This document shows positions 8,983 through 40,560 of a stretch of DNA of 42,283 nt, piece by piece (the first letter of the stretch is position 1; the number at the start of each line of letters is the position of its first letter). Position numbers and translations under genes: made by a program. Source of the stretch: Phaeospirillum sp. (GTDB lineage: Bacteria > Pseudomonadota > Alphaproteobacteria > Rhodospirillales > Magnetospirillaceae); the NCBI GenBank assembly GCA_030824585.1, contig JAVBXM010000035.1, positions 1 to 42,283 of the forward strand, written 5' to 3'. Under the pieces are notes generated by a model, which had not been told where the DNA came from, did not search any database, and was given only the letters and a program-made list of their open reading frames with translations.

Positions 8983-9843
8983 ATGGATATCTGGTTCTTC
9001 CTGATTCAGGTGCTGAACGGGCTTCAGTATGGGCTGTTGCTGTTCCTCGTGGCCAGCGGTCTGACCCTGATTTTCGGCATCATGGGCATCATCAACCTTG
9101 CCCATGGATCGTTCTACATGCTGGGGGCCTATCTGACCTTCTGGCTCCTGCAGTCGGTGGATAGCCTGCTTCTGGCCATCGTGCTGGCGCTGCCCATTTC
9201 GGCTGCGGTCGGCTACCTGATCGAGGCCTTGCTGGTCCGCGTCCTGTACCGGCGCGACCATCTGGATCAGGTGCTGCTGACCTACGGCCTGATCCTCATC
9301 TTCAACGAGGCGCAACGCATGCTGTGGGGCGGCGACGTCCATGGCATCAAGGTTCCGGCTGCCCTGGACTGGTCCATCCCCCTGACCGACACCCTGAGCT
9401 ACCCGGTCTACCGCATGGCCATTTCGGCGGTTTGCGCGGCCCTGGCCGTCGGCATGTACCTGGTCATCCAGCGCACCCGATTTGGAATGTGGATCAGAGC
9501 CGGCGCCTCGAACCGCGACATGGTCGCCGCGCTGGGCATCAACGTGAATCTGCTGTTCGGTGCGGTCTTCGCGCTCGGAGCCGTTCTGGCCGCCCTGTCG
9601 GGCGCCATTGCCGCCCCCATCAGCTCCATCGGCCCGGGCATGGGCGATACCGTCCTGATCATCTGCTTCGTGGTGGTGGTGATCGGCGGCGTGGGGTCGA
9701 TCAAGGGGGCCTTCCTCGGCGCTCTCCTGATTGGTCTGGCGGATACCTTCGGCAAGGTTCTTGCCCCGGATTTCGCCAGCTTCTCCGTTTACGCGGTCAT
9801 GGCCGCCGTCCTGCTTGTCAAGCCGAGGGGGCTGTTCGCATGA
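8983..9843 (+). CDS. ABC transporter permease, LivH family
   Basis: A 286-aa integral membrane protein of the LivH type (MDIWFFLIQVLNGLQYGLLLFLVASGLTLIFGIMGIINLAHG...). It has about eight hydrophobic segments and the conserved GLTLIFGIMGIINLAHGSFYMLGAY signature. It forms the membrane channel with the LivM-type protein. Its stop overlaps the next gene's start by four bases (ATGA at 9840-9843). ATG 8983 was chosen as the first codon giving a normal LivH N-terminus. Confidence 0.9.
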   Translation: MDIWFFLIQVLNGLQYGLLLFLVASGLTLIFGIMGIINLAHGSFYMLGAYLTFWLLQSVDSLLLAIVLALPISAAVGYLIEALLVRVLYRRDHLDQVLLTYGLILIFNEAQRMLWGGDVHGIKVPAALDWSIPLTDTLSYPVYRMAISAVCAALAVGMYLVIQRTRFGMWIRAGASNRDMVAALGINVNLLFGAVFALGAVLAALSGAIAAPISSIGPGMGDTVLIICFVVVVIGGVGSIKGAFLGALLIGLADTFGKVLAPDFASFSVYAVMAAVLLVKPRGLFA

Positions 9844-10835
9844 GCCGTCTTCCACGCTCCCTTTCCATCCTGTTGTCGGTGGCTATCATCCTGCTTGGAG
9901 CCTACCCGTTGTTCGGAGACGTGCTGTTTCCCAACAAGCACGCCTTCCTGATGCAGAAACTCACCGGCATCATGATCATGGCGGTCATGGCCATGAGCCT
10001 GGACCTCCTGGTCGGTGTCGCCGGTCTGGTCAGCATGGGGCATGCGGCGTTCTTCGGACTCGGCGGCTACATGCTGGCCATGCTCTCGCCGGAATATTCG
10101 GCCGCCAACCTGTGGGTGGTGCTGCCGGCGGCGCTGGTCGTCGTCGCCATTGCCTCGGCCATGGTCGGCTACCTGTCCATCCGCACCTCGGGCATCTACT
10201 TCATCATGGTGACCCTGGCCTTCGGCCAGATGGGGTTCTATTTCTTCAATGATTCGAAGCTCGCCGGAGGGTCCGATGGGGCCTACATCATGGTCAAGCC
10301 CGCCGTGGAGATCCTTGGCGTTTCCCTGTTGAACCTCGGCGACAAACGGACCCTCTACTATGTCGGTCTAGGCGCCCTGGTCGGGGTCTATCTGCTACTT
10401 CGTGTCGTGCTGGCGTCGCCGTTCGGCCGGGTGGTCAGCGCCATCGGGGTTAACGAGAATCGTGTCCGTGGGCTGGGCTTCGACCCGGTCGCCTATAAGC
10501 TGCTGGCCTTCACCATCGGCGGAACGATCGCCGGTCTTGCCGGTTTCCTGGCCGCGATCCAATACGGTTTCGTCAATCCCGCCACCCTGTCCTGGCACCA
10601 TTCCGGCGAAGCCCTGGTCATGGTGATTCTGGGCGGCATGGGCACGCTGTTCGGACCCGCTATCGGCGCCTTCGTCTTCGAACTGGCGAAGATGGGCTTT
10701 GAATCGGTGACCGAGCATTGGCTGCTGCCCATGGGGGCGATGATCATCGGCATCGTGCTGCTTCTTCCCAAGGGGGTCGGCGGCTTGCTGCTTCAGCTGT
10801 TCTCCGGGCGGTCCAAGATGGAGGGCGGGCAATGA
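9840..10835 (+). CDS. ABC transporter permease, LivM family
   Basis: A 331-aa membrane protein with the LivM signature AMSLDLLVGVAGLVSMGHAAFFGLGGYMLAML and about nine hydrophobic segments; the C-terminal region includes the YKLLAFTIGGTIAGLAGFLAA segment that contacts the ATPases. It overlaps the LivH-type gene upstream and the LivG-type gene downstream, each by four bases, so the four transporter genes are translationally coupled. Confidence 0.9.
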   Translation: MSRLPRSLSILLSVAIILLGAYPLFGDVLFPNKHAFLMQKLTGIMIMAVMAMSLDLLVGVAGLVSMGHAAFFGLGGYMLAMLSPEYSAANLWVVLPAALVVVAIASAMVGYLSIRTSGIYFIMVTLAFGQMGFYFFNDSKLAGGSDGAYIMVKPAVEILGVSLLNLGDKRTLYYVGLGALVGVYLLLRVVLASPFGRVVSAIGVNENRVRGLGFDPVAYKLLAFTIGGTIAGLAGFLAAIQYGFVNPATLSWHHSGEALVMVILGGMGTLFGPAIGAFVFELAKMGFESVTEHWLLPMGAMIIGIVLLLPKGVGGLLLQLFSGRSKMEGGQ

Positions 10836-15920: not shown

Positions 15921-16226
15921 TTAGCGAGGATGGCGGCCTGATCATTCGCGACACTGGCCGTTTCGTCCCGCACCTCTTTGCGTGCGGATCTCGCCCTTCA
16001 CGACGGCTTTATGCCTGCCCGCTTAATCCATAGTCCTTAATTTGCACCGGCGAATCAGCCTCAGCGTGTCCTTCATGGGACGGGCCTTGGGAGCGACGCA
16101 GACGGGCCGGGCGGAGAATTGCCCATTCAGGGTGGCGCCGAATTTGCAGTGGCCATGGCGGATATGCAATTGTCAGGTGTCGGAGATGGTGGGTATGGCC
16201 ATAATGCCTTCCGGGGATGCCGTCTC
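15921..16226. other. Intergenic region at the aromatic/perchlorate junction
   Basis: 306 bases without a convincing gene. I see no clear terminator after benE, no repeat and no tRNA-like end. An open frame runs in from 16119 but belongs to the upstream extension of the secreted cupin gene. This is where the content changes from aromatic metabolism to the perchlorate module, so it is a candidate left junction. Confidence 0.4.
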
Positions 16227-17573
16227 ATGGAGTGGGCAGTCGTGACGATGGTAAGTGTCTTAAGGGGCTGGATGGTGGTCTGTGCCGTGCTGGTCGTCGG
16301 CATTGCTCCGACGTTTGCCGCGACACCATCGGATACCTATCAGGCCATTGAGGCGGTCAATGCGGAATTGTCCGCCTTCCACGATGCCAACGGGACCATG
16401 GCGGCCGCCGACCCCCAAGCGCCCCAGTTGACCGAGCGCCTGCCCCGGCACGTGCTGCAGAAGGCGCGCGAGGTGCTGTTGAAGGTCCAGGCGCTGCGCC
16501 AGTTGAACGGTTTGGCGCTCCAGCCCGTGCCGGAAATCCCGGTGCGCGAGGTGCAGCCCGACGACGTCCGGTATTTTGTCGAGCGCATGCGTGACGGGCT
16601 AAAGGATTTGCGGCCGATCTTCGGCAATCCCCCGGTTCCAAAGCCAACGGTGGCGGTACGCCCCATGTCGCCCACCGACAATTTCGCGGCGCTGCGGCGG
16701 GCGGAGTTGCAGTTGGACGGCCTGGGCCTGCCCCAGACGGCTCCCAACGACGTGATGCGCATCGCGCTCAGCGTCGTCAACGATCTGCAACTGGTGCGCG
16801 TTGCCACCGGAGTGGCCGGGGCCGTGGCGCCGTCACCGGTGGTGCCGGCCCGCCGTCCGGTGGATACCTACGAGAACGCCGTCGGGCTGCTGGTCGACAT
16901 CAAGGTGCTGACCGAGAACAATTCCTCCCTGGCCATTCCCATGGGGGTCGTGCTGCCCAACAAGCGGACGGGGACCATCCGGCCGGCCCATGTGCTGGAC
17001 CTGCTGGGGACCGTGCTGGCGGAGATATCGGCTATCAAGGCCAAGGTCGGGGTTACCCAGCCGACGGCCCTGGCGCCGCCGCAGACCAGGAAGACGCCCT
17101 CGGACGTTCATGCCGCCGTATCCTATGCCCGCGCCCTGGTCGCCACCTTGCCGGGGGCCAGGCCCAAGGCCGCCGGCGACGCTCCCCCCACCGAGCCCCG
17201 GCCCGCCGCCGTGGTCAAGGGGCCGGCCGCCGAGCGGGTCTTTTCCGTCATGGATTTTGCCAAGTCCGATCCCAAGATGGTGCACCGGCACGTCATCACC
17301 CAGTCGGAGCACGCCATCGTCACCGGCTGGAACGTGCTGCCGGGCCAAGGGCTCAATTCTCACCGCCATCCCGCCGGCCAGGACACCTGGGTGGTCCTGT
17401 CGGGGGAGGCCGAGTATTTCACCGGCGGCGGCAAGAGCCGCCGGATCAAGGCCGGGGATGTGGCGGTCGCCGGTACCGGACAGGTCCACGGCGCGCGCAA
17501 TATCGGGTCCGAGCCCTTCGTCTTCGTCTCCATCGTCGCGCCGGCCGATGCCGGGCTGGAGTCCGACGAGTAG
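16227..17573 (+). CDS. Secreted protein with C-terminal cupin domain
   Basis: About 448 aa. The N-terminus has a hydrophobic export signal (LRGWMVVCAVLVVGIAPTFA, cleavage near FAA). The middle (about 40-330) is helical, Pro-rich, and of unrecognised family. The last 100 residues form a cupin_2 barrel with metal-site motif HRHPAGQDTWVVLSGEAEY and the second motif GQVHGARN. This domain is strikingly like the stand-alone cupin at 29314-29664 on the other side of the pcr genes. The start at 16227 was chosen for the signal peptide; GTG 16242 or ATG 16248 are alternatives. It is 47 bases ahead of moaA. A periplasmic role with perchlorate by-products is only inference. Confidence 0.75.
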   Translation: MEWAVVTMVSVLRGWMVVCAVLVVGIAPTFAATPSDTYQAIEAVNAELSAFHDANGTMAAADPQAPQLTERLPRHVLQKAREVLLKVQALRQLNGLALQPVPEIPVREVQPDDVRYFVERMRDGLKDLRPIFGNPPVPKPTVAVRPMSPTDNFAALRRAELQLDGLGLPQTAPNDVMRIALSVVNDLQLVRVATGVAGAVAPSPVVPARRPVDTYENAVGLLVDIKVLTENNSSLAIPMGVVLPNKRTGTIRPAHVLDLLGTVLAEISAIKAKVGVTQPTALAPPQTRKTPSDVHAAVSYARALVATLPGARPKAAGDAPPTEPRPAAVVKGPAAERVFSVMDFAKSDPKMVHRHVITQSEHAIVTGWNVLPGQGLNSHRHPAGQDTWVVLSGEAEYFTGGGKSRRIKAGDVAVAGTGQVHGARNIGSEPFVFVSIVAPADAGLESDE

Positions 17574-17620
17574 CACGGTTCTTGCTGTTCCCCCATGGAT
17601 CGCCATGACGGGAGCAGGCC

Positions 17621-18586
17621 ATGTTGACGGACATTTCTGGACGCACCATCCGCTATCTGCGGGTTTCGGTCACCGATCGCTGCAATCTCCGCTGTGTCTA
17701 TTGCATGGCGGAGAATCCCGTCTTCATGCCCCGCTCCGAACTGCTCTCCCTGGAGGAGATGGCCGAGATCTGCCGGGTCTTCGCCGATCACGGAATCGAG
17801 CGCATCCGCCTGACCGGCGGCGAGCCCCTGGCGCGGCGGAACGTCATGGCCCTGGTGAATGATTTGGGGAATCTGGTGGGCGAGGGGCGGCTGCGGGAAC
17901 TGACCCTGACCACCAACGGTACCCTGCTGGAGCGCTTCGCCGCCGGTCTGGCCGCCGCCGGCCTGCGCCGTGTCAACGTTTCCCTGGACACCTTGGACCC
18001 GACCCGCTTCGCCCATCTCACCCGGGGAGGCGACGTGGCCACGGTGATCGGCGGAATCCTGGCCGCCCGCCGGGCCGGCCTGGCGGTGCGGGTCAACGCC
18101 GTCATCGCCGGCCCTCCGGACCGGAATGATCTCGACAGGCTGGTCGCCTGGTGCGGCGACCTCGGCCTCGACCTCTGCCTGATCGAGGCCATGCCCATGG
18201 GGCGGCACGATGCGGCGCCGGTGTTCCCGCTGGCCGAGGTGCAACGAGGGCTGGCGGAGCGCTGGACCTTGCTGCCCTCCGCCCATCGCTCCGCCGGCCC
18301 GGCCCGCTATGTGGAGGTGGCCGAGACCGGACAGCGCATCGGCTTCATCACCCCCATGAGCCACGGCTTCTGCGCTTCTTGCGACCGGTTGCGGCTGACC
18401 TGCGCGGGCATGCTGCACCCCTGCCTGGGACGTAATTTCGGCATCGACCTGCGCAATCCCCTGAGGGACGATTCCTCCGGGGCGGCCCTGCGCGAGGCCA
18501 TCGCCCTGGCGGTGGCGGGCAAGCCCGACGGCCATGACTTCACCCAGGTCCGGCCCAGTCGCTCCATGAGCATGACCGGCGGCTGA
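17621..18586 (+). CDS. moaA: GTP 3',8-cyclase MoaA (molybdenum cofactor biosynthesis)
   Basis: A 321-aa radical SAM enzyme. The N-terminal cluster motif is C21-x3-C25-x2-C28 (TDRCNLRCVYC), with the SAM-binding GGEP motif in RLTGGEPLARRNV. The C-terminal cluster cysteines lie in GFCASCDRLRLTCAGMLHPC, and the protein ends in the family double glycine (MTGG), needed for activity. It makes the first intermediate of molybdopterin. Its place directly upstream of the Mo enzyme PcrA suggests a dedicated extra copy to meet cofactor demand; moaA is a known companion gene of perchlorate reduction islands. Confidence 0.92.
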   Translation: MLTDISGRTIRYLRVSVTDRCNLRCVYCMAENPVFMPRSELLSLEEMAEICRVFADHGIERIRLTGGEPLARRNVMALVNDLGNLVGEGRLRELTLTTNGTLLERFAAGLAAAGLRRVNVSLDTLDPTRFAHLTRGGDVATVIGGILAARRAGLAVRVNAVIAGPPDRNDLDRLVAWCGDLGLDLCLIEAMPMGRHDAAPVFPLAEVQRGLAERWTLLPSAHRSAGPARYVEVAETGQRIGFITPMSHGFCASCDRLRLTCAGMLHPCLGRNFGIDLRNPLRDDSSGAALREAIALAVAGKPDGHDFTQVRPSRSMSMTGG

Positions 18587-18587
18587 T

Positions 18588-18624
18588 ACCAAGTCCTGAC
18601 GAGCCGGACTCATCGGGACTTGGT
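18588..18624. repeat. Palindromic REP-like element after moaA
   Basis: ACCAAGTCC (18588-18596) pairs with GGACTTGGT (18616-18624), and the intervening bases extend the stem with few mismatches, giving a long imperfect hairpin 2 bases after the moaA stop. No T-run follows. It looks like a dispersed palindromic repeat and may also act as a transcription end. Confidence 0.5.
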
Positions 18625-18699
18625 TAGGCCCAAGGGGCCGCGCGCCTTATGGCGCGGGAGGCAAGGGCGCACAGCGCCCGCCCGCCGCCTGAGGGCGCC

Positions 18700-18725
18700 C
18701 CCGATGATCGGTTGCGATCATCGGG
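18700..18725 (+). other. 11-bp perfect hairpin upstream of the pcrA control region
   Basis: CCCGATGATCG (18700-18710) pairs perfectly with CGATCATCGGG (18715-18725) around a GTTG loop. It may insulate the pcrA promoter from moaA readthrough, but no T-run is present. Confidence 0.45.
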
Positions 18726-18760
18726 ATATGGTATGAGGCGGCGGTTATTTCGCAAATGCA

Positions 18761-18805
18761 CATTGAACACTTCGTTCAATGCGAAAAATCCCAATTGAAC
18801 GAAGT
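18761..18805. promoter_or_regulatory. Probable PcrR upstream activator sites
   Basis: ATTGAACACTTCGTTCAAT (18762-18780) is an inverted repeat with arms ATTGAAC and GTTCAAT and a 5-base spacer. A further half-site, ATTGAACGAAGT at 18794-18805, is the exact reverse complement of 18769-18780. They lie about 100-150 bases upstream of the sigma54 element at 18907, where activators of the NtrC class bind. The same TTGAAC-N5-GTTCAA pattern recurs beside pcrR (25894-25949), so assignment to PcrR is likely but inferred. Confidence 0.65.
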
Positions 18806-18828
18806 ATCCAGTCGGTTCCCTCGGGCCG

Positions 18829-18842
18829 CTGATCTGGATCAA
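18829..18842 (+). promoter_or_regulatory. FNR/CRP-family box upstream of pcrA
   Basis: CTGAT-CTGG-ATCAA differs by one base from the FNR consensus TTGAT-N4-ATCAA. Its centre (18835.5) is 41.5 bases upstream of position 18877, and a -10-like GAAAAT (18865-18870) lies at matching distance, so a class II FNR-activated promoter is plausible in addition to the sigma54 promoter. Confidence 0.5.
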
Positions 18843-18906
18843 TTAGCGATGGCTTAAATTCCCTGAAAATCCTTGTGGGTATTGCCGGCAGCCCGTTTTC
18901 GCCCCT

Positions 18907-18923
18907 TTGGCACGCCCCTTGCG
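18907..18923 (+). promoter_or_regulatory. Sigma54 (-24/-12) promoter of pcrABCD
   Basis: TTGGCACGCCCCTTGCG matches the RpoN consensus TGGCACG-N4-TTGCW: GG at 18909-18910, GC at 18921-18922, exactly 10 bases between. Predicted transcription start is near 18933, about 80 bases before the pcrA ATG. The nearby PcrR is a sigma54-dependent activator with GAFTGA, matching this promoter class. Confidence 0.85.
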
Positions 18924-19011
18924 CTTTCCCGATGCGTATCGACTGGCCAATGGCCACCGCCTGCCGGGCTCGCCCCGCCATTCGGACAGGGAAAGAAACA
19001 AGGAGCGCATC

Positions 19012-21807
19012 ATGGCCTTACGTTCACGCCGCTCATTCCTCAAGGCCGCCGCCGCCACGTCCGTGGGTGTCGGTGTCGCCGGGACCCTCTCGTTCCGCGC
19101 CCTTGCCGCCACCGATCCCGGCCGGGATTTCGAGTACAGCGGCTGGGAGCAGTTTCATCGCGAGCAGTGGAGCTGGGACAAGCGGACCCGCGGCGCCCAC
19201 CTGATCAACTGCACCGGCGCCTGTCCCCACTACGTCTACCAGAAGAACGGCGTGATCCTGCGCGAGGAGCAGTCCAAGGACGCTCCCCTGCTGAAGGGCG
19301 TGCCGGAATACAATCCGCGCGGCTGCAACAAGGGCGAGTGCGCCACCGACTACGTCTACAGCGCCACCCGGCTGAAGTATCCGCTGATCCGGGTCGGCGA
19401 GCGCGGCGAGGGCAAGTGGCGCCGGGCCAGTTGGGACGAGGCGCTGGGCATGATCGCCGACAAGATCGTCGACACCATCCAGAAGGACGGTCCCGACGCC
19501 GTCAGCGTCTATTCCCCGGTTCCCGCCGTGGCGCCGGTGTCGTTCTCGGGCGGCCACCGCTTCGCCCACCTGATCGGCGCTCACACCCACACCTTCTTCG
19601 ACTGGTACGGCGACCAACCTCCCGGCCAGACCCAGACCTGCGGCGTCCAGGGCGATACCGCCGAGACCGCCGACTGGTACAACGCCCGCCACATCATCCT
19701 GTGGGGCGCCAATCCGTCGCAGACCCGCATTCCCGACGCCCACTTCCTGTCGGAGGCGGCGCTCAACGGCACCAAGATCGTCAGCGTGGCGCCCGACTAC
19801 AACGCCAGCTCCATCAAGGCCGACATGTGGGTCCACCCCAAGCCGGGCACCGACGTGGCCCTGGTGCTGGGCATGGCCAACATCATCCTCAGGGAAAAGC
19901 TGTTCGACGCCCATAACCTGAAGGAGCAGACCGACATGCCCCTTCTGGTCCGCTCGGACACCAGGATGTACCTGCGGGAATCCGATCTGGTGGCCGACGG
20001 CTCCAAGAACCGCTTCTACGCCTGGGACGGCAAGACCGGCATGCCGGTGCTGATGCGCGGCAGCTGGGGCGACGAGCCCGAGGTCAAGCCCGCGGTGCAG
20101 CCGCCCTTCCTGGCCCGCAACACCCTGACTTTCCCCGACGGCACCCTGGATCTCGGCGCGCTCGACCCGGCGCTGGAGGGCAAGTTCAAGATCAAGCTGC
20201 TCAACGGCAAGACCGTCGAATGCCAGCCGGTGTTCGAGCTTTACCGCACCCGCATCCTGGCCGATTACACGCCCGACAAGGTGGCGGCCATCACCGGCGT
20301 CAATGCCAAGATCGTCGCCCAGATGGGCCGCGAATACGCCATGGCCAAGCCGGCCATGATCATCACCGGCGGCGGTACGGGCCACTGGTTCTATTCCGAC
20401 GTCCTGATGCGGGTGTTCCACTTCCTGTCGTCGCTGACCGCCAACGAGGGCAAGAACGGCGGCGGGGTGAACCACTATATCGGCCAGTGGAAGCCGGTCT
20501 TCGTCCCCGGCGTCGCCGCCCTGTCCTTCCCGCAAGGGGCGGGCAAGCAGCGCTTCTGCCAGACCACCATCTGGACCTACGTCCACGGCGAAGCCTATGA
20601 CGGCATGGAGAAGGTGGGCATCGACACCGCCAAGTACCTGAAGCACGCCCTCGACACCAAGCAGATGCCCATCTATCCCCGCGACGGGCGCGATCCCAAG
20701 GTGTTCATCTGCTATCGCGGCAACTTCCTCAACCAGGCCAAGGGGCAGAAATACGTTCTGCGCAACCTGTGGCCCAAGCTGGACCTGATCGTCACCGCCA
20801 ATATCCGCATGGACAGCCAGGCGCTGTTCTCGGACATCGTGCTGCCCTCGGCCCATTGGTACGAAAAGACCGACCTCAACGTCACCGAGGAGCACACCTT
20901 CATCAACATGACCGAGCCGGCCATCGCGCCCATGTGGGAGTCGAGGACCGACTGGCAGATCTTCAAGGCCCTGTCCAAGAAGGTGGAGGAGGCGGCCGTC
21001 GCCAAGGGCTTCAAGTCCTTCTTCGACGAGCAGTTCAAGTGGAACCGCGATCTTTCCACCCTGTCGGCCCAGTTTACCGACAACGGCAAGCTCGATACCG
21101 ACGAGGCCGCCGCCCAGTTCATCTTGGACAACGCGCCTCAGAGCAAGGGCATCACCCTGGATCAGGTGCGCGAGAAGCCGGTGCGCTTCAAGGCCAACTG
21201 GACCTCGCCCATCAAGGAGGGGGTGCCCTACACGCCCTTCCAGTTCTTCGCGGTCAACAAGCGCCCCTGGCCGACGCTCACCGGCCGCCAGCAGTTCTAC
21301 ATCGACCACGAGGTGTTCTTCTCCCTGGGCGTGGAGCTGCCGGTCTACAAGGCGCCGGTGGAGGCCGACAAGTATCCGCTGCGCTTCAACACGCCGCACT
21401 CGCGCCACGCCATCCATTCCACCTTCAAGGACAATCCGCTGATGCTGCGGCTCCAGCGCGGCGGTCCCATGGTGGAGATCCCCCGCGTCGAGGCCGAGGC
21501 TCGCGGCCTCAAGGACAACGACTGGGCCGAGATCTTCAATGATCACGGCAAGGTCATCGTCCGGGTCAAGGTCAAGGACGGCGAGCAGCCGGGCCGCATC
21601 TCCATGTACCACACGCCCGAGCTCTACATGGACCTGATCGAGGGCAGTTCCCAGAGCGTCTGCCCCATCCGCATCACTCCCACCCATCTGGTGGGCAATT
21701 ACGGCCACCTGCTGTTCCGACCCAACTATTACGGCCCCGGCGGCAGCCAGCGCGACACGCGGGTGGAGATGCGCAAGTACACGGGAACCGTCACCAAGCA
21801 GCTGTGA
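19012..21807 (+). CDS. pcrA: Perchlorate reductase catalytic (molybdopterin) subunit
   Basis: A 931-aa type II DMSO-reductase family protein. Tat signal: SRRSFLKAAAA at residues 5-15, cleavage near residue 32. The FS0 cluster motif is H63-x3-C67-x3-C71 plus a distal Cys (C105 or C110). The Mo-ligating aspartate is D201 in DWYGDQPPG. The following segment, TADWYNARHIILWGANPSQTR, matches NarG-like enzymes. Putative aromatic gate residues are F195, F196 and W493. Start 19012 has AAGGAGCGCATC upstream and places the twin arginines at the N-terminus. It reduces perchlorate and chlorate to chlorite in the periplasm. Nitrate or chlorate reductase are the alternatives; the gene set pcrABCD-napC-cld-pcrRS favours perchlorate reductase. 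Confidence 0.9.
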   Translation: MALRSRRSFLKAAAATSVGVGVAGTLSFRALAATDPGRDFEYSGWEQFHREQWSWDKRTRGAHLINCTGACPHYVYQKNGVILREEQSKDAPLLKGVPEYNPRGCNKGECATDYVYSATRLKYPLIRVGERGEGKWRRASWDEALGMIADKIVDTIQKDGPDAVSVYSPVPAVAPVSFSGGHRFAHLIGAHTHTFFDWYGDQPPGQTQTCGVQGDTAETADWYNARHIILWGANPSQTRIPDAHFLSEAALNGTKIVSVAPDYNASSIKADMWVHPKPGTDVALVLGMANIILREKLFDAHNLKEQTDMPLLVRSDTRMYLRESDLVADGSKNRFYAWDGKTGMPVLMRGSWGDEPEVKPAVQPPFLARNTLTFPDGTLDLGALDPALEGKFKIKLLNGKTVECQPVFELYRTRILADYTPDKVAAITGVNAKIVAQMGREYAMAKPAMIITGGGTGHWFYSDVLMRVFHFLSSLTANEGKNGGGVNHYIGQWKPVFVPGVAALSFPQGAGKQRFCQTTIWTYVHGEAYDGMEKVGIDTAKYLKHALDTKQMPIYPRDGRDPKVFICYRGNFLNQAKGQKYVLRNLWPKLDLIVTANIRMDSQALFSDIVLPSAHWYEKTDLNVTEEHTFINMTEPAIAPMWESRTDWQIFKALSKKVEEAAVAKGFKSFFDEQFKWNRDLSTLSAQFTDNGKLDTDEAAAQFILDNAPQSKGITLDQVREKPVRFKANWTSPIKEGVPYTPFQFFAVNKRPWPTLTGRQQFYIDHEVFFSLGVELPVYKAPVEADKYPLRFNTPHSRHAIHSTFKDNPLMLRLQRGGPMVEIPRVEAEARGLKDNDWAEIFNDHGKVIVRVKVKDGEQPGRISMYHTPELYMDLIEGSSQSVCPIRITPTHLVGNYGHLLFRPNYYGPGGSQRDTRVEMRKYTGTVTKQL

Positions 21808-21882: not shown

Positions 21883-22887
21883 ATGACCACCAAAGCAATG
21901 GCGGTTCCCACCCGGCAGATCGCCTTCGTCGTCGACCTCAACAAGTGCATCGGCTGTCAGACCTGCACCGTCGCCTGCAAGCGGCTGTGGACCGGCCATC
22001 CCGGTCAGGCCTTCATGTACTGGCGCAACGTCGAGACTGCTCCGGGCCAGGGCTATCCCCGCAACTGGACCGCCAAGGGCGGCGGCTACAAGGACGGCGA
22101 ACTGCAAAAGGGCAAGCGCCCCGGCGGCGCCGATTACGGCGTGCCCTTCGACTTCGACTACGAAGGCCGCCTGTTCCAGGGCAAGGCCGACCGGGCGCGG
22201 CCCAGCCCGGCGCCCCACAGCGCCCCCAACTGGGACGAGGAGCAGGGCGCCGGCGAATATCCCAACAACCACTATTTCTTCCTGCCGCGCATGTGCAATC
22301 ACTGCTCGCAGCCGGCCTGCCTGGAATCCTGCCCCAACGACGCCATCTACCGCCGCGTCCAGGACGGCATCAACGTCATCAACCTGGACAAGTGCAAGGG
22401 CACCGGGTCGTGCGTCGAAGCCTGCCCCTACGGCAAGAGCTTCCTCAACATGGCCGATCTCAAGGGCAACAAGTGCATCGGCTGCTATCCCCGCATCGAG
22501 AAGGGCGTGGCCTCGGCCTGCGTCGCCCAGTGCGCCGGCCGCGCCATGCATGTGGGCTTCCTCGACGACATGAACAGCTCGGTCCACAAGCTGGTCAACG
22601 TCTTCAAGGTCGCCCTGCCGCTCTACCCCGAGTTCGGCACCAAGCCCAACGTGTTCTACATCCCGCCGGCCTTCGGCCCCATGGTCGAGGACGCCCAGGG
22701 CAACCCCACCAACCAGGCCAAGATCCCCCTGGCCTATCTCGAGCAATTGTTCGGGCGCGAGGTGGGCTCGGCCCTGGCCCTGCTGCGGTCCGAGCGCAGC
22801 CGCAAGATGAGCGGCATGCCGTCGGACGTGATGGACACCATGATCGGGGCGCGCAGCGCCGACATGATGATCTCTCCCCTGACCTGA
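21883..22887 (+). CDS. pcrB: Perchlorate reductase iron-sulfur subunit
   Basis: A 334-aa NarH/DmsB-type electron-transfer subunit without its own signal peptide, so it is probably exported with PcrA. Four cysteine clusters: CIGCQTCTVACK near residue 26, CNHCSQPACLESCP near residue 138, CKGTGSCVEACP near residue 171, and CIGCYPRIEKGVASACVAQC near residue 194. It carries electrons from PcrC to the FS0 cluster of PcrA. It begins 75 bases after pcrA; the gap includes a GCCGG hairpin but no terminator. Length and motif order are normal for the family. Confidence 0.9.
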   Translation: MTTKAMAVPTRQIAFVVDLNKCIGCQTCTVACKRLWTGHPGQAFMYWRNVETAPGQGYPRNWTAKGGGYKDGELQKGKRPGGADYGVPFDFDYEGRLFQGKADRARPSPAPHSAPNWDEEQGAGEYPNNHYFFLPRMCNHCSQPACLESCPNDAIYRRVQDGINVINLDKCKGTGSCVEACPYGKSFLNMADLKGNKCIGCYPRIEKGVASACVAQCAGRAMHVGFLDDMNSSVHKLVNVFKVALPLYPEFGTKPNVFYIPPAFGPMVEDAQGNPTNQAKIPLAYLEQLFGREVGSALALLRSERSRKMSGMPSDVMDTMIGARSADMMISPLT

Positions 22888-22902: not shown

Positions 22903-23598
22903 ATGAAAAACCTCTTTTTATTCGTTGTGGCCGTGGGGCTGGCGCTGATGGCGCCAGCCGCCCAGGCGGCCGACAAGGCGACCTTCGAAGGCGCCAAGGT
23001 CTGCGGCAAGTGCCACGATCTCCAGGCGGAATCCTGGCAGACCACCGGCCACGCCAAAGCCCTCGATCTGCTGAAGCCCGGCATCCGGTCCGAGGCCAAG
23101 GCCAAGGCCAAGCTGGACCCGGCCAAGGACTATACCGCCGATGCCAATTGCCTGGGCTGCCACACCACCGGCTATGGCGAGGCGGGGGGCTATGATCCCG
23201 CCATGCCGCCCGCCCAGGCCAAGGTCCTGGCGGTGGTGGGCTGCGAATCCTGCCACGGGGCCGGCAGCGCCTTCAAGAAGGAGCACGGCGACGCCGAGGG
23301 CCGCTTCAAGAAGGGCGGCGCCACCACCGACCGCAAGGTGCTGGTCGAGGCGGGCCAGACCTTCGACTACGAAAAGGCCTGCGCCCGCTGCCACGGCGCC
23401 GCCACGCCCAAGCCCGCCAGCCCGTTCACCCCGGCCATCGATGCCAAATACGCCTTCGACTTCGACAAGGCGGTGCGGGCCGGCGGCAAGGCCAAGGGCG
23501 TGCACGATCACTTCAAGCTGATCGGCGTCTTCGCCGGCGAGCCGGTGCACCGGCTGCGCGGCGAGTTCCAGAAGAACGCCAAGGAAGGTGGAGAATGA
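22903..23598 (+). CDS. pcrC: Tetraheme periplasmic cytochrome c
   Basis: A 231-aa protein with an N-terminal signal peptide (NLFLFVVAVGLALMAPAAQA) and four CxxCH heme-binding motifs: CGKCH, CLGCH, CESCH and CARCH, resembling the cytochrome c554 family. It likely shuttles electrons from the membrane quinol dehydrogenase to PcrAB. A multiheme C subunit in order A-B-C-D distinguishes perchlorate reductase from chlorate reductase, whose C subunit is a heme b protein. It overlaps pcrD by four bases (ATGA). Confidence 0.85.
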   Translation: MKNLFLFVVAVGLALMAPAAQAADKATFEGAKVCGKCHDLQAESWQTTGHAKALDLLKPGIRSEAKAKAKLDPAKDYTADANCLGCHTTGYGEAGGYDPAMPPAQAKVLAVVGCESCHGAGSAFKKEHGDAEGRFKKGGATTDRKVLVEAGQTFDYEKACARCHGAATPKPASPFTPAIDAKYAFDFDKAVRAGGKAKGVHDHFKLIGVFAGEPVHRLRGEFQKNAKEGGE

Positions 23599-24275
23599 CC
23601 CCCGCACCGACCATCGCGGCCTGCCGCGCCGAAGCCTACGGCCTGCTGGCCGAAGCCTTCGCCTATCCCGAGGAAACCCTGTGCCGGAGCATCATCGACG
23701 GCGATCTCCAGGCCGAGTTGTGCGACACCATTTCCCTGGCCTATCCCGGCTCCGCCGTCGCGCTGCTGGCTTTGACCGACGATCTGGCGGTGCCGGCGGG
23801 AACCGGCTGCGACGAGGTGGAGAGCGCCTATCTCTCCAGCTTCGAGCTGGACGCCCCGTCCTCGCCCTGTCCGCTCTACGAGGGCGCCCATGTGCGCGAT
23901 ACCGACCGGGCCGCGATCCTGCTGGAGGTCAAATCCTTCTACCAGCATTTCGGCCTGACCATCGCCGCCGACCTCAACGCTCCCGAGGACCATCTGTCGG
24001 CCGAGCTGGAATTCATGGCCTTCCTGGTCGCCAAGCAGGCCGATGCCGAGGAGACGGGCCGCGATCCGGCCCCCTATCTGCGGGCCCAGCGTGACTTTCT
24101 CGAACGGCATCTGGGCCGTTGGCTGCCGCTCCTGGGGGGCGCCGCCGAGCACAAGGTGGGATTCGGGTTCTATCGCGCCATGTGCCGTCTGGTGGGCACC
24201 TACGTGGCCGGGGACCTGGACCTGGTCCGGCATCTGGCCGCCCAGGTCCCTTCCGCCAGCGCAACGGAGCACTGA
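23595..24275 (+). CDS. pcrD: TorD/NarJ-type molybdoenzyme chaperone
   Basis: A 226-aa helical cytoplasmic protein (ACRAEAYGLLAEAFAYPEETLC...) with the redox-chaperone signature region around SSPCPLYEGAHVRD and the C-terminal ERHLGRWLPLLGG. Such chaperones bind the Tat signal of the catalytic subunit and assist cofactor insertion before export. It is not part of the mature enzyme. Overlap with pcrC and only 3 bases to the next gene show a single operon. Confidence 0.85.
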   Translation: MTPAPTIAACRAEAYGLLAEAFAYPEETLCRSIIDGDLQAELCDTISLAYPGSAVALLALTDDLAVPAGTGCDEVESAYLSSFELDAPSSPCPLYEGAHVRDTDRAAILLEVKSFYQHFGLTIAADLNAPEDHLSAELEFMAFLVAKQADAEETGRDPAPYLRAQRDFLERHLGRWLPLLGGAAEHKVGFGFYRAMCRLVGTYVAGDLDLVRHLAAQVPSASATEH

Positions 24276-24278
24276 GCC

Positions 24279-24860
24279 ATGGGCTGGCCCAAGCTTCCCC
24301 GCTGGATGTTGCTGGGAGCGCCGCTGGGGGCCGCCGCCGCCTTCTTCGTCGCCGGCATTATGTTCTGGGGCGGTTTCAACACCGCCATGGAGGCCACCAA
24401 CACCCTGGGCTTCTGCATCGGTTGCCACGAGATGAAGGACACCGTCTACAAGGAGTATGTGGGTACCGTTCATTACGCCAACCGCAGCGGCGTGCGGGCG
24501 GTGTGCTCCGACTGCCATGTGCCCCATCCCTGGGTCTACAAGATCATCCGCAAGATCCAGGCCTCGGGCGAGCTTTACCACAAGGTCATGGGCTCGGTGG
24601 ACACCCCCGAGAAGTTCGAGGCCAAGCGCCTGGAACTGGCCAAGCGGGTCTGGTCGACCATGAAAACCACGGATTCGCGGGAATGCCGCAACTGCCATTC
24701 CTTCGAGGCCATGTCCAAGGACGCCCAGAAGAACACCGCGTGGCGGCGCCACAGCACCGCCGACGAGAAGGGCAAGACCTGCATCGATTGCCACAAGGGC
24801 ATCGCCCACAAGGACATCTCCTCGCTCTACGAGGAGGACGAAGGGGCTGCCGGCAAATAG
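24279..24860 (+). CDS. NapC/NirT-family tetraheme quinol dehydrogenase
   Basis: A 193-aa membrane-anchored cytochrome c. One N-terminal transmembrane helix (MLLGAPLGAAAAFFVAGIMFW) is followed by four CxxCH motifs: CIGCH, CSDCH, CRNCH and CIDCH. The FCIGCHEM segment and spacing fit the NapC/NirT family. It oxidises membrane quinol and passes electrons to periplasmic acceptors, here presumably PcrC. This is the quinol dehydrogenase gene typical of perchlorate reduction islands. Confidence 0.87.
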   Translation: MGWPKLPRWMLLGAPLGAAAAFFVAGIMFWGGFNTAMEATNTLGFCIGCHEMKDTVYKEYVGTVHYANRSGVRAVCSDCHVPHPWVYKIIRKIQASGELYHKVMGSVDTPEKFEAKRLELAKRVWSTMKTTDSRECRNCHSFEAMSKDAQKNTAWRRHSTADEKGKTCIDCHKGIAHKDISSLYEEDEGAAGK

Positions 24861-25787
<927 letters not shown>

Positions 25788-25856
25788 CCCCCCCCGGTCC
25801 GGCTGTTCCGGTCCGGACTCTCCCCGGCATCCCCCCTGATGGCCGGAACAGCGGAG

Positions 25857-25895
25857 CCCGCCGATCACTCCCACCGTGATCGGCGGGTTCATTTT
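25857..25895 (+). terminator. Terminator after cld
   Basis: CCCGCCGATCAC (25857-25868) pairs perfectly with GTGATCGGCGGG (25876-25887) around a 7-base loop, followed by TTCATTTT. A second weaker inverted repeat (GCTGTTCCGG 25802-25811 with CCGGAACAGC 25843-25852) precedes it. It ends the pcr-cld operon and shields the convergent pcrR. Confidence 0.75.
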
Positions 25896-25910
25896 GAACG
25901 AATCGTTCAA
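25894..25910. promoter_or_regulatory. Perfect 17-bp palindrome, putative PcrR site
   Basis: TTGAACGAATCGTTCAA is a perfect palindrome about its central base and fits TTGAAC-N5-GTTCAA. It lies immediately after the cld terminator. Confidence 0.6.
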
Positions 25911-25922
25911 GTCGTGGTGCGA

Positions 25923-25949
25923 GACGATTGAACGGAACGTTCAATCGTC
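25923..25949. promoter_or_regulatory. 11-bp-arm palindrome overlapping the pcrR stop, putative PcrR site
   Basis: GACGATTGAAC (25923-25933) and GTTCAATCGTC (25939-25949) are perfect inverted arms around a 5-base spacer. The site includes the pcrR stop codon and its last codons. It is the longest palindrome of the family found in this window. Confidence 0.6.
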
Positions 25950-27314
25950 GTCGTGCCGGCCCTTGGGCGAGATCAGTCCGAATTCCTTGATCCGCCGCTC
26001 CAGCCGGGGGCGGGAGACCTCCAGGATGTCGCAGGCCCGTCCCTTGTGCCAGCCGGTTTCCGTCAGGACGCGGCGGATATGGTCGCGTTCCAGTTCGCGT
26101 AGCGAGCACATGGCCGAGGCGCAGGCGGACTCGTCCGTCTCCGGCAGGGACGGGGCTTGGCGCAGCTCGGGCGGCAGGCAGTCGGGAGTGAGCACGTCGC
26201 CGCGCTCCAGCACCGCCGCCTTCATCAGGACGTTCTCCAGTTCGCGCACATTGCCGGGCCAGCGATAGCCCTCCAGGCAGGCCATGGCGTCGCCCGACAC
26301 CCGCCGGATGGTCTTGCGCAGGTCCTTGTTGATCTTCTTCAGCAGGAACTCGGTCAGCAGGGGGATGTCGCCCCGCCGCTCGCGCAGCGGCGGCAGGTTG
26401 ATGGTGGCGACGTTGAGGCGGTAGAACAGATCCTCGCGGAACAGCCCGGCGGCCACCCGTTCCTTCAGGTTGACGTTGGTGGCGGTGATGAAGCGGGCCT
26501 TGCTTTTCCTGGTCTGGGTGCTGCCCACCGGGGTGTATTCCCGCTCCTCCAGGATGCGCAGCAGCTTGCTCTGCATGGGGGGCGACAGTTCGGCGATCTC
26601 GTCCAGGAACAGGGTTCCTTCGCCCACCTGCTCGACCTTGCCCTTGTGGGCGCTGACCGCGCCGGTGAAAGCGCCGCGCTCGTGGCCGAACATCTCGCTT
26701 TCCAGCAGGGTCTCCACCAGGGCGGCGCAGTTGACCGCCACGAAGGGGTGGTGGCGGTCGGCGCTGGCATTGTGAACGGCGCGGGCCACCAATTCCTTGC
26801 CGGTGCCCGATTCGCCCAGGATCAGCACGGTGATACGGCTTTGCGCCACCAGGCCGATGCTCTTGAACACCTCTTTCATGGCGAAGCTGTGGCCGACGAT
26901 CTGGGTGGGCGCGGTGCCCGCCGCCGAGCCGATGATCAGGCCGCCGCCCGACTGGCCTTGCGACAGGGCGCGCTCCACCGCCGCGTCCAGCTCGCCCAGG
27001 TCGATGGGCTTGGGGACGTAGTCGACGGCGCCGCCCTGCATGGCGGCCACCGTGGTCTCGAAATCGTGGAAGGCGGTGATCATGATCACCGGCAACTGCG
27101 GCCGCCGCGCCTTGATGGTCGACAGCAGGCTCATGCCGTCGGCGCCGGGCAGGCGGACGTCGGAGATCACCACGTCGACGCTGTCGTCCTCGGCCTTGTT
27201 GACGCCGTCCTCGGCGGAATGGGCGGTGGTGACGGTGTAGTCGTTCTGTTGGAAATGCAGATGGAGGGTACGGCAGATGGCGCGGTCGTCATCGACCAGC
27301 AGGATGTGCGGCAT
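25941..27314 (-). CDS. pcrR: Sigma54-dependent response regulator
   Basis: A 457-aa NtrC-type activator: receiver domain (D9, D10, phosphoacceptor D52, K102), AAA+ domain with Walker A GESGTGKE (167-174), sigma54-contact loop GAFTGA (214-219) and Walker B TLFLDE (234-239), and a C-terminal Fis-type HTH (RRVLTETGWHKGRACDILEVSRPRLERRIKEFGL). All key residues are present. It faces cld tail-to-tail and is divergent from the kinase gene at 27434. It most likely activates the sigma54 promoter at 18907. In perchlorate reduction islands this regulator is named PcrR. Confidence 0.85.
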   Translation of the reverse strand: MPHILLVDDDRAICRTLHLHFQQNDYTVTTAHSAEDGVNKAEDDSVDVVISDVRLPGADGMSLLSTIKARRPQLPVIMITAFHDFETTVAAMQGGAVDYVPKPIDLGELDAAVERALSQGQSGGGLIIGSAAGTAPTQIVGHSFAMKEVFKSIGLVAQSRITVLILGESGTGKELVARAVHNASADRHHPFVAVNCAALVETLLESEMFGHERGAFTGAVSAHKGKVEQVGEGTLFLDEIAELSPPMQSKLLRILEEREYTPVGSTQTRKSKARFITATNVNLKERVAAGLFREDLFYRLNVATINLPPLRERRGDIPLLTEFLLKKINKDLRKTIRRVSGDAMACLEGYRWPGNVRELENVLMKAAVLERGDVLTPDCLPPELRQAPSLPETDESACASAMCSLRELERDHIRRVLTETGWHKGRACDILEVSRPRLERRIKEFGLISPKGRHDDD

Positions 27315-27433
27315 GTCTCACCTTGGGCGGTGGAGGGTGCGGCATTGGAATTGCAATAACCCGGCCATGTGAAGCATAGCACCGCGCCGGGGCTGTGGCT
27401 AAGCTTCCTGGGGATTGTGTGCAAGGAGCGGGC

Positions 27434-29317
27434 GTGAAGACGTCGCGAAAGATTTTCGGCCTGACCTACCTGATCTCGGTGCTGGCCATCGCCGCCATCG
27501 CCGCCTTCACCCTGTCGCGAACCACCGCGACCCTGCACGATCTGTCGCGCCAGCGCCTGTTCGAGAGCGTCAACCGCGAGGCGCGGATCATCTACAACAC
27601 GCTGGACATGGTGAAAAGCGACATCGGGGTGCTGGCCGACGAGGGCGCTTCCCTGCTGGAGGGGGGGCGCTCCCTGGATGAGGGCGCCCGCCGCAAGTTC
27701 GCCGAGCGCCTGTCCGGCCTGTTGCAGAAGCGGCCGGCCTATACCCGCATCTTGCTGCAGACCGGCGCCGGGCGGGACAGGGTCACCTTTTCTGTGGAGC
27801 AGACCGACCAGGGCCTGCGGGCCAAGGGGGTGGGCGCCGACGTGGATTCCGACCTCATCATGATGATCGACGAGGCCAAGAAGCTGTGGCCGGGCAACGT
27901 CACCCTGTCGCCGGTCCTGGTGCGGGCCAGCCGGGTGGATGCGGAGCAGAAGGTCAAGCTGCTCTATGTGGCCACCCCCATCGCCGCCAAGGACGGCCGG
28001 GTGGAGGGCGCCCTGGTGTTCTCCATGGATTTCGACGTCCTGCTGAGCGGCTTCGGGCGGCCGAAGACCGACATCACCTTCTTCATCGGTGATACGGACG
28101 GGACCTATCTCTATCGCCCGGTCGGGCCGGTCGAGGCCCGCAAGGGGGCGACTTCGGACAATCTGATCCGCGATCTCGGCATCGGCCGCCAATGGGCGAG
28201 GTGGTCCCAGGGCAGCGATCCCCAACTGCGCCTCGACATCCCGGAAAAGCGCCTGGCCGTGGTGCTGTACCGGGTGCTGCTGGCCGACCCGGTGATCAGC
28301 CCCACCGTTCCCATCCTGGTGATCGGCGGCTCCGCCTCGCTCAGCGAGCTGGATCACACCATCGTCAGCTTCCGCACCGAACTGGCCCTGATGGCGCTGC
28401 TGGCCGGCGGGCTGGTGGCCCTGGCCTTGGCGCTGGCCACCAATTACCTGTCGCAGCCCATCCAGGAACTGACCGCCATGGCCGACCGGATCTCCGACGG
28501 CGAACAGGAGATCACGTCGCCGGCTGTCGACCGGCGGGACGAGTTCGGCAAGCTGGCCCGCGCCATGACCCGCATGCTGGACGCCTTGCGCGGCGTGGCC
28601 AAGAACGAGGAGCAGGCGGCGCTGGGCCGCATGGCGACCATGATCGCCCATGACCTGCGCAACGCGCTGTCGTCGGTGAAGATGAATCTCAAGATTCTCC
28701 ATACTCACCACCGAACCGAAGGAGATGACCTGGCCGATGGCTGCAACATCGCGCTGGACCAGGTGGGCTACATGGAGAACATCCTGACCGACATGCTGGA
28801 TTTCGCCCGTCCCAACGATCTGCATCTGGACTGGGTCGATCTGGACGAGGTGATCGGGGTGGCGACGGTCTCCATGCTGCCGGCGATCGAGGCCCAGTCC
28901 ATCACGGTCTGCACCTCGGGGAACTTCACCCTGCCCAAGGTCCAGGGCGACCGCACCCGCCTGATTCAGGTGTTCCAGAACCTGCTGTCCAACGCTATCC
29001 AGTCCATGCCCGACGGCGGCCATCTCACCATCGAGGCCGAGGCCCAGATCCATGAATCCCGCCCCTCGGTGGAGGTGCGGATCATCGACAGCGGATCGGG
29101 CATCGCCGAGGCGATCCGCGACAGCGTGCTCGAGCCGTTCTTCACCACCAGGGCCAAGGGCACCGGCCTGGGCCTCACCATCGTCAACCGGCTGGTGCAG
29201 AGCCATGGCGGCGAGTTGACGCTGGAGCCCAATCCCGAGGGCGGTACCATCGCCCGGGTGATGCTGCCTCTGGTTTCCGCCACCTGGCAGCCGGAAGCGC
29301 AGAAGGAGATTCCATGA
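27434..29317 (+). CDS. pcrS: Membrane sensor histidine kinase
   Basis: A 627-aa kinase. TM1 is near residues 8-28, a periplasmic sensor region (Cache-like, about 30-310) follows, then TM2 near 316-337, HAMP, the HisKA motif with H406 (MIAHDLRNALSS) and an HATPase domain with NLLSNAIQ, DSGSGIAE and GTGLGLTIV. GTG 27434 was chosen as start because AAGGAG precedes it; an upstream in-frame ATG at 27395 has no ribosome site. Divergent from pcrR by 119 bases, it is the obvious partner. Its stop overlaps the cupin gene. The signal sensed is unknown; (per)chlorate or a redox cue is likely. Confidence 0.82.
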   Translation: MKTSRKIFGLTYLISVLAIAAIAAFTLSRTTATLHDLSRQRLFESVNREARIIYNTLDMVKSDIGVLADEGASLLEGGRSLDEGARRKFAERLSGLLQKRPAYTRILLQTGAGRDRVTFSVEQTDQGLRAKGVGADVDSDLIMMIDEAKKLWPGNVTLSPVLVRASRVDAEQKVKLLYVATPIAAKDGRVEGALVFSMDFDVLLSGFGRPKTDITFFIGDTDGTYLYRPVGPVEARKGATSDNLIRDLGIGRQWARWSQGSDPQLRLDIPEKRLAVVLYRVLLADPVISPTVPILVIGGSASLSELDHTIVSFRTELALMALLAGGLVALALALATNYLSQPIQELTAMADRISDGEQEITSPAVDRRDEFGKLARAMTRMLDALRGVAKNEEQAALGRMATMIAHDLRNALSSVKMNLKILHTHHRTEGDDLADGCNIALDQVGYMENILTDMLDFARPNDLHLDWVDLDEVIGVATVSMLPAIEAQSITVCTSGNFTLPKVQGDRTRLIQVFQNLLSNAIQSMPDGGHLTIEAEAQIHESRPSVEVRIIDSGSGIAEAIRDSVLEPFFTTRAKGTGLGLTIVNRLVQSHGGELTLEPNPEGGTIARVMLPLVSATWQPEAQKEIP

Positions 29318-29664
29318 CCAGGACGTTTCATGCCCCCGCCAGCGCCCGCCCCAACCCCGAGGCGGTGGAGCGCACCGTGATCCATCAGACCGCCGAGGCC
29401 GCCCTGGTGGTTTGGCACTTGCTGCCGGGCCAGGAAATTCCACCCCACCGGCATCCGGCGGGCCAGGATACCTGGGTGGTGCTGTCGGGCGAGGCCGAGT
29501 ACCTGATGGAGGGCGGGCGGACACTGATTCTTCGGGCGGGCGACATTGCCGTTGCGGAGCGGGGGCAGATCCACGGGGCTCGCAACCTGTTGGAGGCGCC
29601 GTTTATCTTCACCTCGGTGGTATCGCCCGCGGATGCCGGCTACCAGCTTGAAACGGCAGACTGA
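29314..29664 (+). CDS. Stand-alone cupin_2 protein
   Basis: A 116-aa cytoplasmic cupin. Metal-site motif 1 is H-x-H in PPHRHPAGQDTWVVLSGEAEY, and motif 2 is GQIHGARN. The barrel is almost the same as the C-terminal domain of the secreted protein at 16227-17573, including a run of 17 identical residues (HRHPAGQDTWVVLSGEA) and the shared PADAG tail. It overlaps pcrS by four bases (ATGA), so it is co-translated with the kinase. Its role, perhaps in sensing or detoxifying a by-product, is unknown. Confidence 0.8.
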   Translation: MTRTFHAPASARPNPEAVERTVIHQTAEAALVVWHLLPGQEIPPHRHPAGQDTWVVLSGEAEYLMEGGRTLILRAGDIAVAERGQIHGARNLLEAPFIFTSVVSPADAGYQLETAD

Positions 29665-31307: not shown

Positions 31308-31673
31308 ATGCCCAAAACAGTGTTGTGTGTCGATGACTCGGCCAGCATGCGCCAGATGGTGCGTCTCGCCCTGACCAGCGACGGCTACGTGGTGGTCGAG
31401 GCGGTGGACGGGCGCGATGCTCTCGGCAAGGCCCGAACGATGGTCGCCGATCTCGTGATCACCGATCTCAACATGCCGAACATGGACGGCCTGTCGTTCA
31501 TCCGGGAGTTGCGGGGCATCAGCGACTACAAGGGCATTCCCATCGTCTTCCTGACCACTGAATCGGACGACGACAAGAAGGGTGAGGCGAAAAGCGCCGG
31601 TGCGACGGCCTGGATCACCAAGCCGTTCCAGCCCGAGCGCTTGCTGGCCATCGTCAAGAAGGTCTTGGGATGA
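31308..31673 (+). CDS. cheY: Chemotaxis response regulator CheY
   Basis: A 121-aa single receiver domain: D9, D10, phosphoacceptor D53 (ITDLNMPNMDG), T in FLTTES and K in ITKPF. It carries phosphate from CheA to the flagellar motor, or acts as a phosphate sink. It overlaps cheA by four bases. Confidence 0.92.
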   Translation: MPKTVLCVDDSASMRQMVRLALTSDGYVVVEAVDGRDALGKARTMVADLVITDLNMPNMDGLSFIRELRGISDYKGIPIVFLTTESDDDKKGEAKSAGATAWITKPFQPERLLAIVKKVLG

Positions 31674-33658: not shown

Positions 33659-33672
33659 AAGGAGGGGGGGCG

Positions 33673-34137
33673 ATGGCGGCGTCCGAATCGGCACGGGAAG
33701 TGGTGACCCTGGAAATGCAGGGCGAGGTCTTCGCCATCGATGCCCATTGGGTCCGCGAAATCCTCGACATGGTGCCGGTCACCGAGGTGCCCAATGCCCA
33801 GCCCTTCGTCAGCGGATTGATCAACGTGCGCGGCAAGGTGGTGCCGCTGGCCGACCTGCGTCTGCGCTTCGGCATGCCGCAATCGCCGCCGACCGTCGAT
33901 ACCCGCGTCATCGTCATAGACGCCATGGTCGGCAGCGAGCCGACGGCGGTGGGGATTCTGGCCGACCGCGTCTACGAAGTCACCGAGATCGCCCCCGCCG
34001 CCATCGAGGAAACACCACGCATCGGCTTGCGCTGGCGACCGGAATACATCAGCGGCATCGGCAAGCTGGGGGGCGATTTCATCATCATCCTCGATATGGA
34101 ACAGGTCTTGGCTGTCGGGCCGACAACGACGCAATAG
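33673..34137 (+). CDS. cheW: Coupling protein CheW (copy 1)
   Basis: A 154-aa Che[59 protein letters not shown] is the typical twin SH3-like fold. It links the MCP to CheA. Start 33673 is preceded by GGAGGGGGGG. It resembles the second CheW at 36299 but is clearly divergent. Confidence 0.92.
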
Positions 34138-34177
34138 ACGCCGGCGGCGGGAAATATCCGGGAAAGGAGATCTCGAT

Positions 34178-36271: not shown

Positions 36272-36298
36272 CCCTCGGCTTTGATCTCGGAGGTTCCG

Positions 36299-36790: not shown

Positions 36791-40548
<3,758 letters not shown>

Positions 40549-40560
40549 GGAGAGGCCACG

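Follow-up and report, generated by a model that had tools for sequence, protein, structure and literature searches.

Putative PcrR operators and a sigma54 promoter upstream of pcrA in a perchlorate reduction island, and an operator pair at the 3′ end of pcrR

The region upstream of pcrA in a perchlorate reduction island of Phaeospirillum sp. combines a tandem pair of putative PcrR operators with a sigma54 −24/−12 element, a classical layout through which, judging from sequence comparison, PcrR and sigma54 very probably control pcrABCD-pcrQ-cld. The island lies within a contig stretch of 42,283 nucleotides (the window) that belongs to a 4.94-Mb genome in 262 contigs, in which an RpoN gene is present. 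In the arrangement that we propose, PcrS would be the kinase, and phosphorylated PcrR would occupy a pair of palindromes separated by about three turns of the helix (18763-18811). Bound PcrR would then loop to sigma54-RNA polymerase at the −24/−12 element, and pcrABCD-pcrQ-cld would be transcribed as one RNA, with an FNR/CRP-family protein probably contributing oxygen or redox input at a box between the operators and the promoter. An earlier note had proposed PcrR-sigma54 control of pcrABCD; the comparison of islands supports this model, and the target is probably wider, taking in pcrQ and cld, which the note had overlooked in the same gene string. A further finding, which is new, is that in many copies of pcrR the stop codon of the gene lies inside an operator.

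Table 1 Features of the perchlorate reduction island in the window.
Feature	Position	Strand	Remark
moaA	17621-18586	+	
PcrR operator 1 (UAS, putative) TTGAACACTTCGTTCAA	18763-18779	.	upstream of pcrA
PcrR operator 2 (putative, degenerate) TTGAACGAAGTATCCAG	18795-18811	.	32 bp from operator 1; scores 10/14
FNR/CRP-like box CTGATCTGGATCAA	18829-18842	.	1 mismatch to TTGAY-N4-RTCAA
sigma54 −24/−12 promoter TTGGCACGCCCCTTGCG of pcrA	18907-18923	+	start predicted near 18934
pcrA, perchlorate reductase catalytic subunit (type II DMSO reductase family)	19012-21807	+	
pcrB, Fe-S subunit	21883-22887	+	
pcrC, multihaem cytochrome	22903-23598	+	
pcrD, NarJ-type chaperone	23595-24275	+	
pcrQ, NapC/NirT-type quinol dehydrogenase	24279-24860	+	
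cld, chlorite dismutase	24897-25787	+	
strong hairpin after cld, 12-bp stem, 7-nt loop	25857-25887	.	possible transcription end
PcrR operator 4 (putative) TTGAACGAATCGTTCAA	25894-25910	.	orphan pair
PcrR operator 3 (putative) TTGAACGGAACGTTCAA	25928-25944	.	orphan pair; contains pcrR TGA stop (25941-25943)
pcrR, NtrC-type response regulator (receiver, sigma54-activating AAA+ with GAFTGA, Fis-type HTH)	25941-27314	−	
pcrS, histidine kinase (HAMP, HisKA, HATPase; weak dCache)	27395-29317	+	

The pcr core and pcrS are encoded on the plus strand and pcrR on the minus strand (Table 1). With its receiver, Sigma54_activat and Fis HTH domains, PcrR belongs to the NtrC-type enhancer-binding proteins, and the GAFTGA loop that the earlier note had read in it is located at residue 214. 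The true start of pcrS may lie downstream of the annotated one. Gene spacing and order suggest that pcrABCD-pcrQ-cld form a single transcript. The hairpin after cld went unflagged by a terminator scan; folding of 25840-25915, a stretch that also takes in an operator, gives a z of −4.9. Two cupin-domain genes (16119-17573 and 29314-29664), alike in their cupin regions, flank the pcr core, and relatives of them also occur in Dechloromonas-type loci. Just past the perchlorate genes, at 31308-41853, the window holds a chemotaxis set identified by Pfam, with a CheY-like receiver, CheA, an MCP with a 4HB sensor and CheR.

The inverted repeat TTGAAC-N5-GTTCAA of operator 1 is found where the earlier note had placed it, with arms that extend to 8 perfect base pairs (18761-18781). 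The extra half-site mentioned there, TTGAAC at 18795-18800, is likewise present and forms part of the degenerate second site. Exactly three copies of the repeat occur in the whole genome, all of them inside the island, and the reversed control yields none; with up to two mismatches, the palindrome is found six times in the window against 0.67 expected, a count far above chance that none of 100 shuffles reached. A tandem partner lies 30-32 bp from the main palindrome in each of 11 pcrA promoters, taken as the best 17-mer at 28-35 bp and with L018 omitted as a duplicate of L006. Partner-site scores range from 8 to 12 of 14, the lowest of which mean little individually; 0.7% of window positions are expected to have a site of at least 10/14 located 28-35 bp downstream. 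The downstream member of the pair has the exact left arm TTKAACG in nine of these promoters (the exceptions being L004 and G344), and the operator consensus is about TTKAACG-N3-CGTTMAA.

The −24/−12 element also stands at the position assigned to it earlier; its fit to the consensus is not exact, as had been claimed, since the final W of TTGCW is a G. The core TGGCACG-N4-TTGC, with GG and GC at the fixed spacing, is exact at 18908-18922, and this is the sole exact match to TGGCAYG-N4-TTGC in the window. Because 0.13 matches are expected and at least one appears in 13 of 100 shuffles, the core alone is only mildly unusual, and its weight rests on conservation. Allowing up to two mismatches, TGGCAC-N5-TTGCW has 13 matches in the window against 19.8 expected, no excess over chance. 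The predicted start of pcrA transcription follows from the spacing to this element. A sigma54-like sequence, TAGCACGGTTCTTGC, occurs at 17571-17585, 50 bp before moaA, and is identical in G011. We did not adopt moaA as a PcrR target, since no site within 420 bp scores above 9/14, and keep it as a lead; palindromes with one or two mismatches at the moaA start in L004 and L005 were taken as coding sequence.

We compared the upstream regions of 20 pcrA loci, comprising 16 from a pcrA scan, three from genome searches (G011, G344 and G158) and the window. The loci are related overall, L006 and L018, which look identical, do not count as independent, and the operator consensus was drawn from part of this set. 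Presence of PcrR was set at E ≤ 1e-130, and absence, here and in the genome-wide searches below, means none among the matches listed per genome. A palindrome of at least 12/14 together with a −24/−12 core with 0-1 mismatch is found at 12 of the 20 loci, 11 of which have PcrR. All 11 loci with PcrR place the palindrome at −213 to −285 from pcrA and TGGCAYG-N4-TTGC, with 0-1 mismatch, at −81 to −138. For each element at the 12 positive loci, no more than one of 300 mononucleotide-shuffled versions of the same upstream region was equally good. The eight loci without PcrR (three Rhodoplanes, two gammaproteobacterial MAGs, the Sulfuricella MAG L017, Azospirillum L019 and L007) have palindrome scores of 9-10/14 and promoters with 2-4 mismatches, no better than 24 or more of 300 shuffles. 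The search of other perchlorate islands that the earlier note had called for thus came out positive at 11/11 loci with PcrR and at 0/8 without it. Both elements are also present in L004, a MAG with no PcrR among the matches listed at E ≤ 1e-130, which counts against the model. L007 encodes another response regulator, 37% identical to PcrR and with a different recognition helix, and has the palindrome ACGGTCA-N5-TGACCGT at 9841-9859 before pcrA, with a poorer −24/−12-like element (two mismatches); this locus would appear to use another regulator and another palindrome in the same place. The TGACCG half-site also seems to include the stop codon of the L007 regulator.

Genome-wide searches used the pattern TTKAACGNNNCGTTMAA, drawn from the window and the loci of the first island comparison. 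Among 15 pcrA genomes (all but that of L005 of the 16 in the scan), the pattern occurs once each in six, inside the island, and PcrR at E ≤ 1e-130 is present in exactly those six; as they helped to draw the motif, the new information is that the pattern is found nowhere else in those genomes. Of 79 relatives, eight have PcrR (E ≤ 1e-150), and the exact pattern is present in 5/8 of these versus 3/71 of the others; the PcrR genomes without it (G011, G020 and G036) carry near-exact copies next to pcrR, off by one base. The family of Dechloromonas hortensis (genome G092), covered by 297 genomes, has PcrR in five, every one of which contains the pattern, versus 8/292 others. Once the training genomes (G000, G020, G086, G089 and G092) are excluded, the exact pattern is found in six of eight PcrR genomes (G005, G017, G053, G071, G158 and G344) versus 11/363 others, so that the palindrome accompanies PcrR beyond the genomes from which the motif was derived. 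With the training genomes added back, the counts are 13/16 versus 11/372 (Fisher p = 2e-15, with relatedness ignored).

What is informative is the identity of the genomes with the pattern and its location in them, not its overall frequency. Reversed controls, counted by hand, were more frequent than the pattern itself, at 25 versus 13 of the 297 genomes and about 44 versus 19 in a set of 385 genomes of the class. Two genomes of the latter set have PcrR and 19 have the pattern, and its background of 17/383 was used as the chance level. Exact operators in three relatives (G007, G019 and G068), with no PcrR-like match in the surrounding 15-16 kb, were taken as chance. In G388, a PcrR relative (61%) and the exact pattern lie on different contigs, the sequence after the pcrR stop has no site above 10/14, and the 19 kb retrieved has none with up to two mismatches, which counts against a universal PcrR-operator rule. 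The searched plasmids have no PcrR at E 1e-100, and their PcrA relatives are all under 60% identity. The palindrome thus co-occurs with PcrR across genomes, with G388 and L004 as exceptions, and because operator and promoter track PcrR across loci and genomes, PcrR-sigma54 control is well supported at the sequence level.

The same operator is found at genes other than those of perchlorate reductase. In G005 and G017 it stands, together with an exact −24/−12 core, ahead of cld and of a type II molybdoenzyme distinct from PcrA (about 32% identity). At L042 (1752-8982) and L043 (4631-9799), cld is joined to that type of molybdoenzyme, with a PcrR operator and a −24/−12 element, possibly as a chlorate-type reductase island. 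G053 and G071, whose PcrR relatives are 58% and 63% identical, have the exact operator before multihaem cytochrome genes, with a −24/−12 element that has one mismatch in G053 and none in G071. These cytochromes, of 792 and 810 residues, match ExtM models well below the cut-off. The stretches fetched from both genomes contain no PcrA- or Cld-like match, and that from G071 has a pcrQ-like gene; the operator therefore appears to follow the regulator and not the metabolism. In L005 (Magnetospirillum sp. UT-4), a second pcrA-pcrB-pcrD-like set (62% to PcrA) lies between cld and pcrR at 16857-21177, and similar paralogues adjoin pcrR in G017 and G036, with operators directly before them and no adequate −24/−12 element. 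That operators immediately precede the gene at three pcrA2 loci, with no adequate −24/−12 element in between, counts against the model.

A box with one mismatch to the FNR/CRP site TTGAT-N4-ATCAA, overlooked in the earlier note, lies between the putative enhancer and the promoter of pcrA. With up to one mismatch the wider pattern has two matches in the window versus 2.31 expected, so the box is not significant alone; it gains weight from its recurrence between enhancer and promoter in 7/12 pcrA promoters (window, G011, L006, L018, L008, L014 and G158). One of the two cytochrome promoters (G071) has it as well, and at the same threshold it is absent from three pcrA2 and two cld promoters. Its presence in some promoters and absence from others make oxygen or redox co-control through this box likely in certain lineages and not a general feature.

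Two perfect copies of the palindrome at the 3′ end of pcrR (25894-25944) had likewise escaped the earlier note. Among 17 pcrR genes, a site of at least 10/14 includes the TGA stop in ten (window, G011, G005, G020, G017, G036, G053, L012, L015 and G344). Nine of these sites begin one base before the stop, as T or C followed by TGA-A; in G020 the stop falls four bases further on within the same palindrome. The stop-overlapping site is followed by another after 30-34 bp (22 bp in G017). Seven genes have no stop-overlapping operator (L006, L018, L008, L014, G158, G071 and G388), and in six of them, G388 being the exception, an operator is found before the target operon instead. Of these ten, scans allowing 0-1 mismatch show only L012 and G053 with a −24/−12 element no more than about 300 bp downstream, leaving eight stop-overlapping operators without a close sigma54 promoter. 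The orphan pair of the window has no such element within 1.3 kb, and the scan has no match between 23686 and 27340. Two sigma54 candidates with two mismatches in the pcrR-pcrS intergenic region, at 27340 (+) and 27367 (−), are too weak to claim. They face pcrR and pcrS, both are identical in G011 and one is similar in G017; together with the operators at the 3′ end of pcrR, they might allow autoregulation.

17-bp palindromes are common for MarR and TetR proteins, which fits the length of the operator, and a MarR gene lies in the window at 2007-2441. A lysR-type regulator is also reported from Magnetospirillum islands in PMC4623255. The palindrome could on these grounds be the operator of another island regulator of MarR, LysR or TetR type, with PcrR binding elsewhere, but the sites track PcrR over alpha- and betaproteobacteria, adjoin non-perchlorate genes, stand in tandem about 30-34 bp apart upstream of −24/−12 elements and often overlap the pcrR stop, all of which makes this reading very unlikely. 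The FNR-like box raises another alternative, in which an FNR/CRP-type activator would mainly drive pcrA from a sigma70 promoter, as at Ideonella dechloratans cld, for which PMC7349173 describes a class II FNR box with −10/−35-like elements. In both systems (per)chlorate genes are preceded by a box of the type TTGAY-N4-RTCAA; the box in the window, however, sits between the PcrR enhancer and the sigma54 promoter. A simple scan upstream of pcrA found no sigma70-like promoter, and the box is missing from 5/12 pcrA promoters, whereas the −24/−12 core with 0-1 mismatch is present in 12/12. We consider FNR-driven sigma70 transcription highly improbable and favor PcrR-sigma54 control.

The orphan pair itself might merely survive from an ancestral pcrR-pcrA order and do nothing in the window. 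The same pair still precedes a −24/−12 promoter in L012 and G053, and L015, which resembles L012, now has about 7.5 kb of uncharacterised DNA between pcrR and pcrA, as such a history would have it. In an ungapped comparison of the window with G011, both of which have the orphan arrangement, however, the arms agree at 22/24 positions, the spacer at 7/17 and the next 30 bases at 8/30. Near-perfect arms next to a diverged spacer and diverged downstream DNA suggest that selection holds the arms; the pair appears to have been kept by selection, and an inert remnant is accordingly the rather doubtful reading. A retained pair might serve autoregulation or act as a distal enhancer. We tentatively suggest, as a possibility somewhat short of probable, that pcrR is a portable regulator-enhancer cassette with an operator pair at its 3′ end and the TGA inside the first half-site. 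If so, moving pcrR beside any operon with a −24/−12 promoter would bring control along, the 3′ pair would still work, by autoregulation or as a distal enhancer, where no promoter follows, as in the window, and operons for perchlorate reductase, the PcrA paralogue, the cld-linked molybdoenzyme and the multihaem cytochrome would have come under one operator code in this way.

The layout resembles that of NtrC-type sigma54 systems, with which the island shares an activator of receiver, AAA+ (GAFTGA) and Fis HTH domains and paired sites spaced by about 30 bp, which in the window precede the −24 element by about 105 and 137 bp. PcrR scores below the cut-off of the NCBIfam NtrC model (436.4 versus 558.6 bits), and its operator differs from the NtrC site, TGCACC-N5-GGTGCA. 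PcrR-PcrS are known from Azospira suillum and relatives, and in a clade described in that literature pcrS and pcrR lie on opposite strands, as in the window (Melnyk et al. 2011, 2014, as cited in PMC5845722 and PMC4623255). PMC4623255 states that pcrPSR are each required in A. suillum and groups pcrSR of Magnetospirillum and several betaproteobacteria in one clade, and the arrangement in the window, with pcrS and pcrR on opposite strands beside pcrABCD and cld, matches the one described for that clade. That PcrR probably induces the pcr operon together with RpoN was proposed by Melnyk et al. 2014, as cited in PMC5845722, which also describes the signals that induce the operon through PcrPSR as unknown; the model of the earlier note is therefore a known proposal. 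The operator sequence, the tandem spacing, the pcrR 3′ copies and the non-perchlorate use were not found in the open-licence literature searched, and within that literature our analysis adds the operator together with its layout and distribution.

A defined operator makes the regulon searchable, provides exact bases for footprints and reporters and renders PcrR targets outside perchlorate islands predictable. With an operator fused to the stop codon of its own regulator, respiratory genes that move horizontally could take their control with them by simple means.
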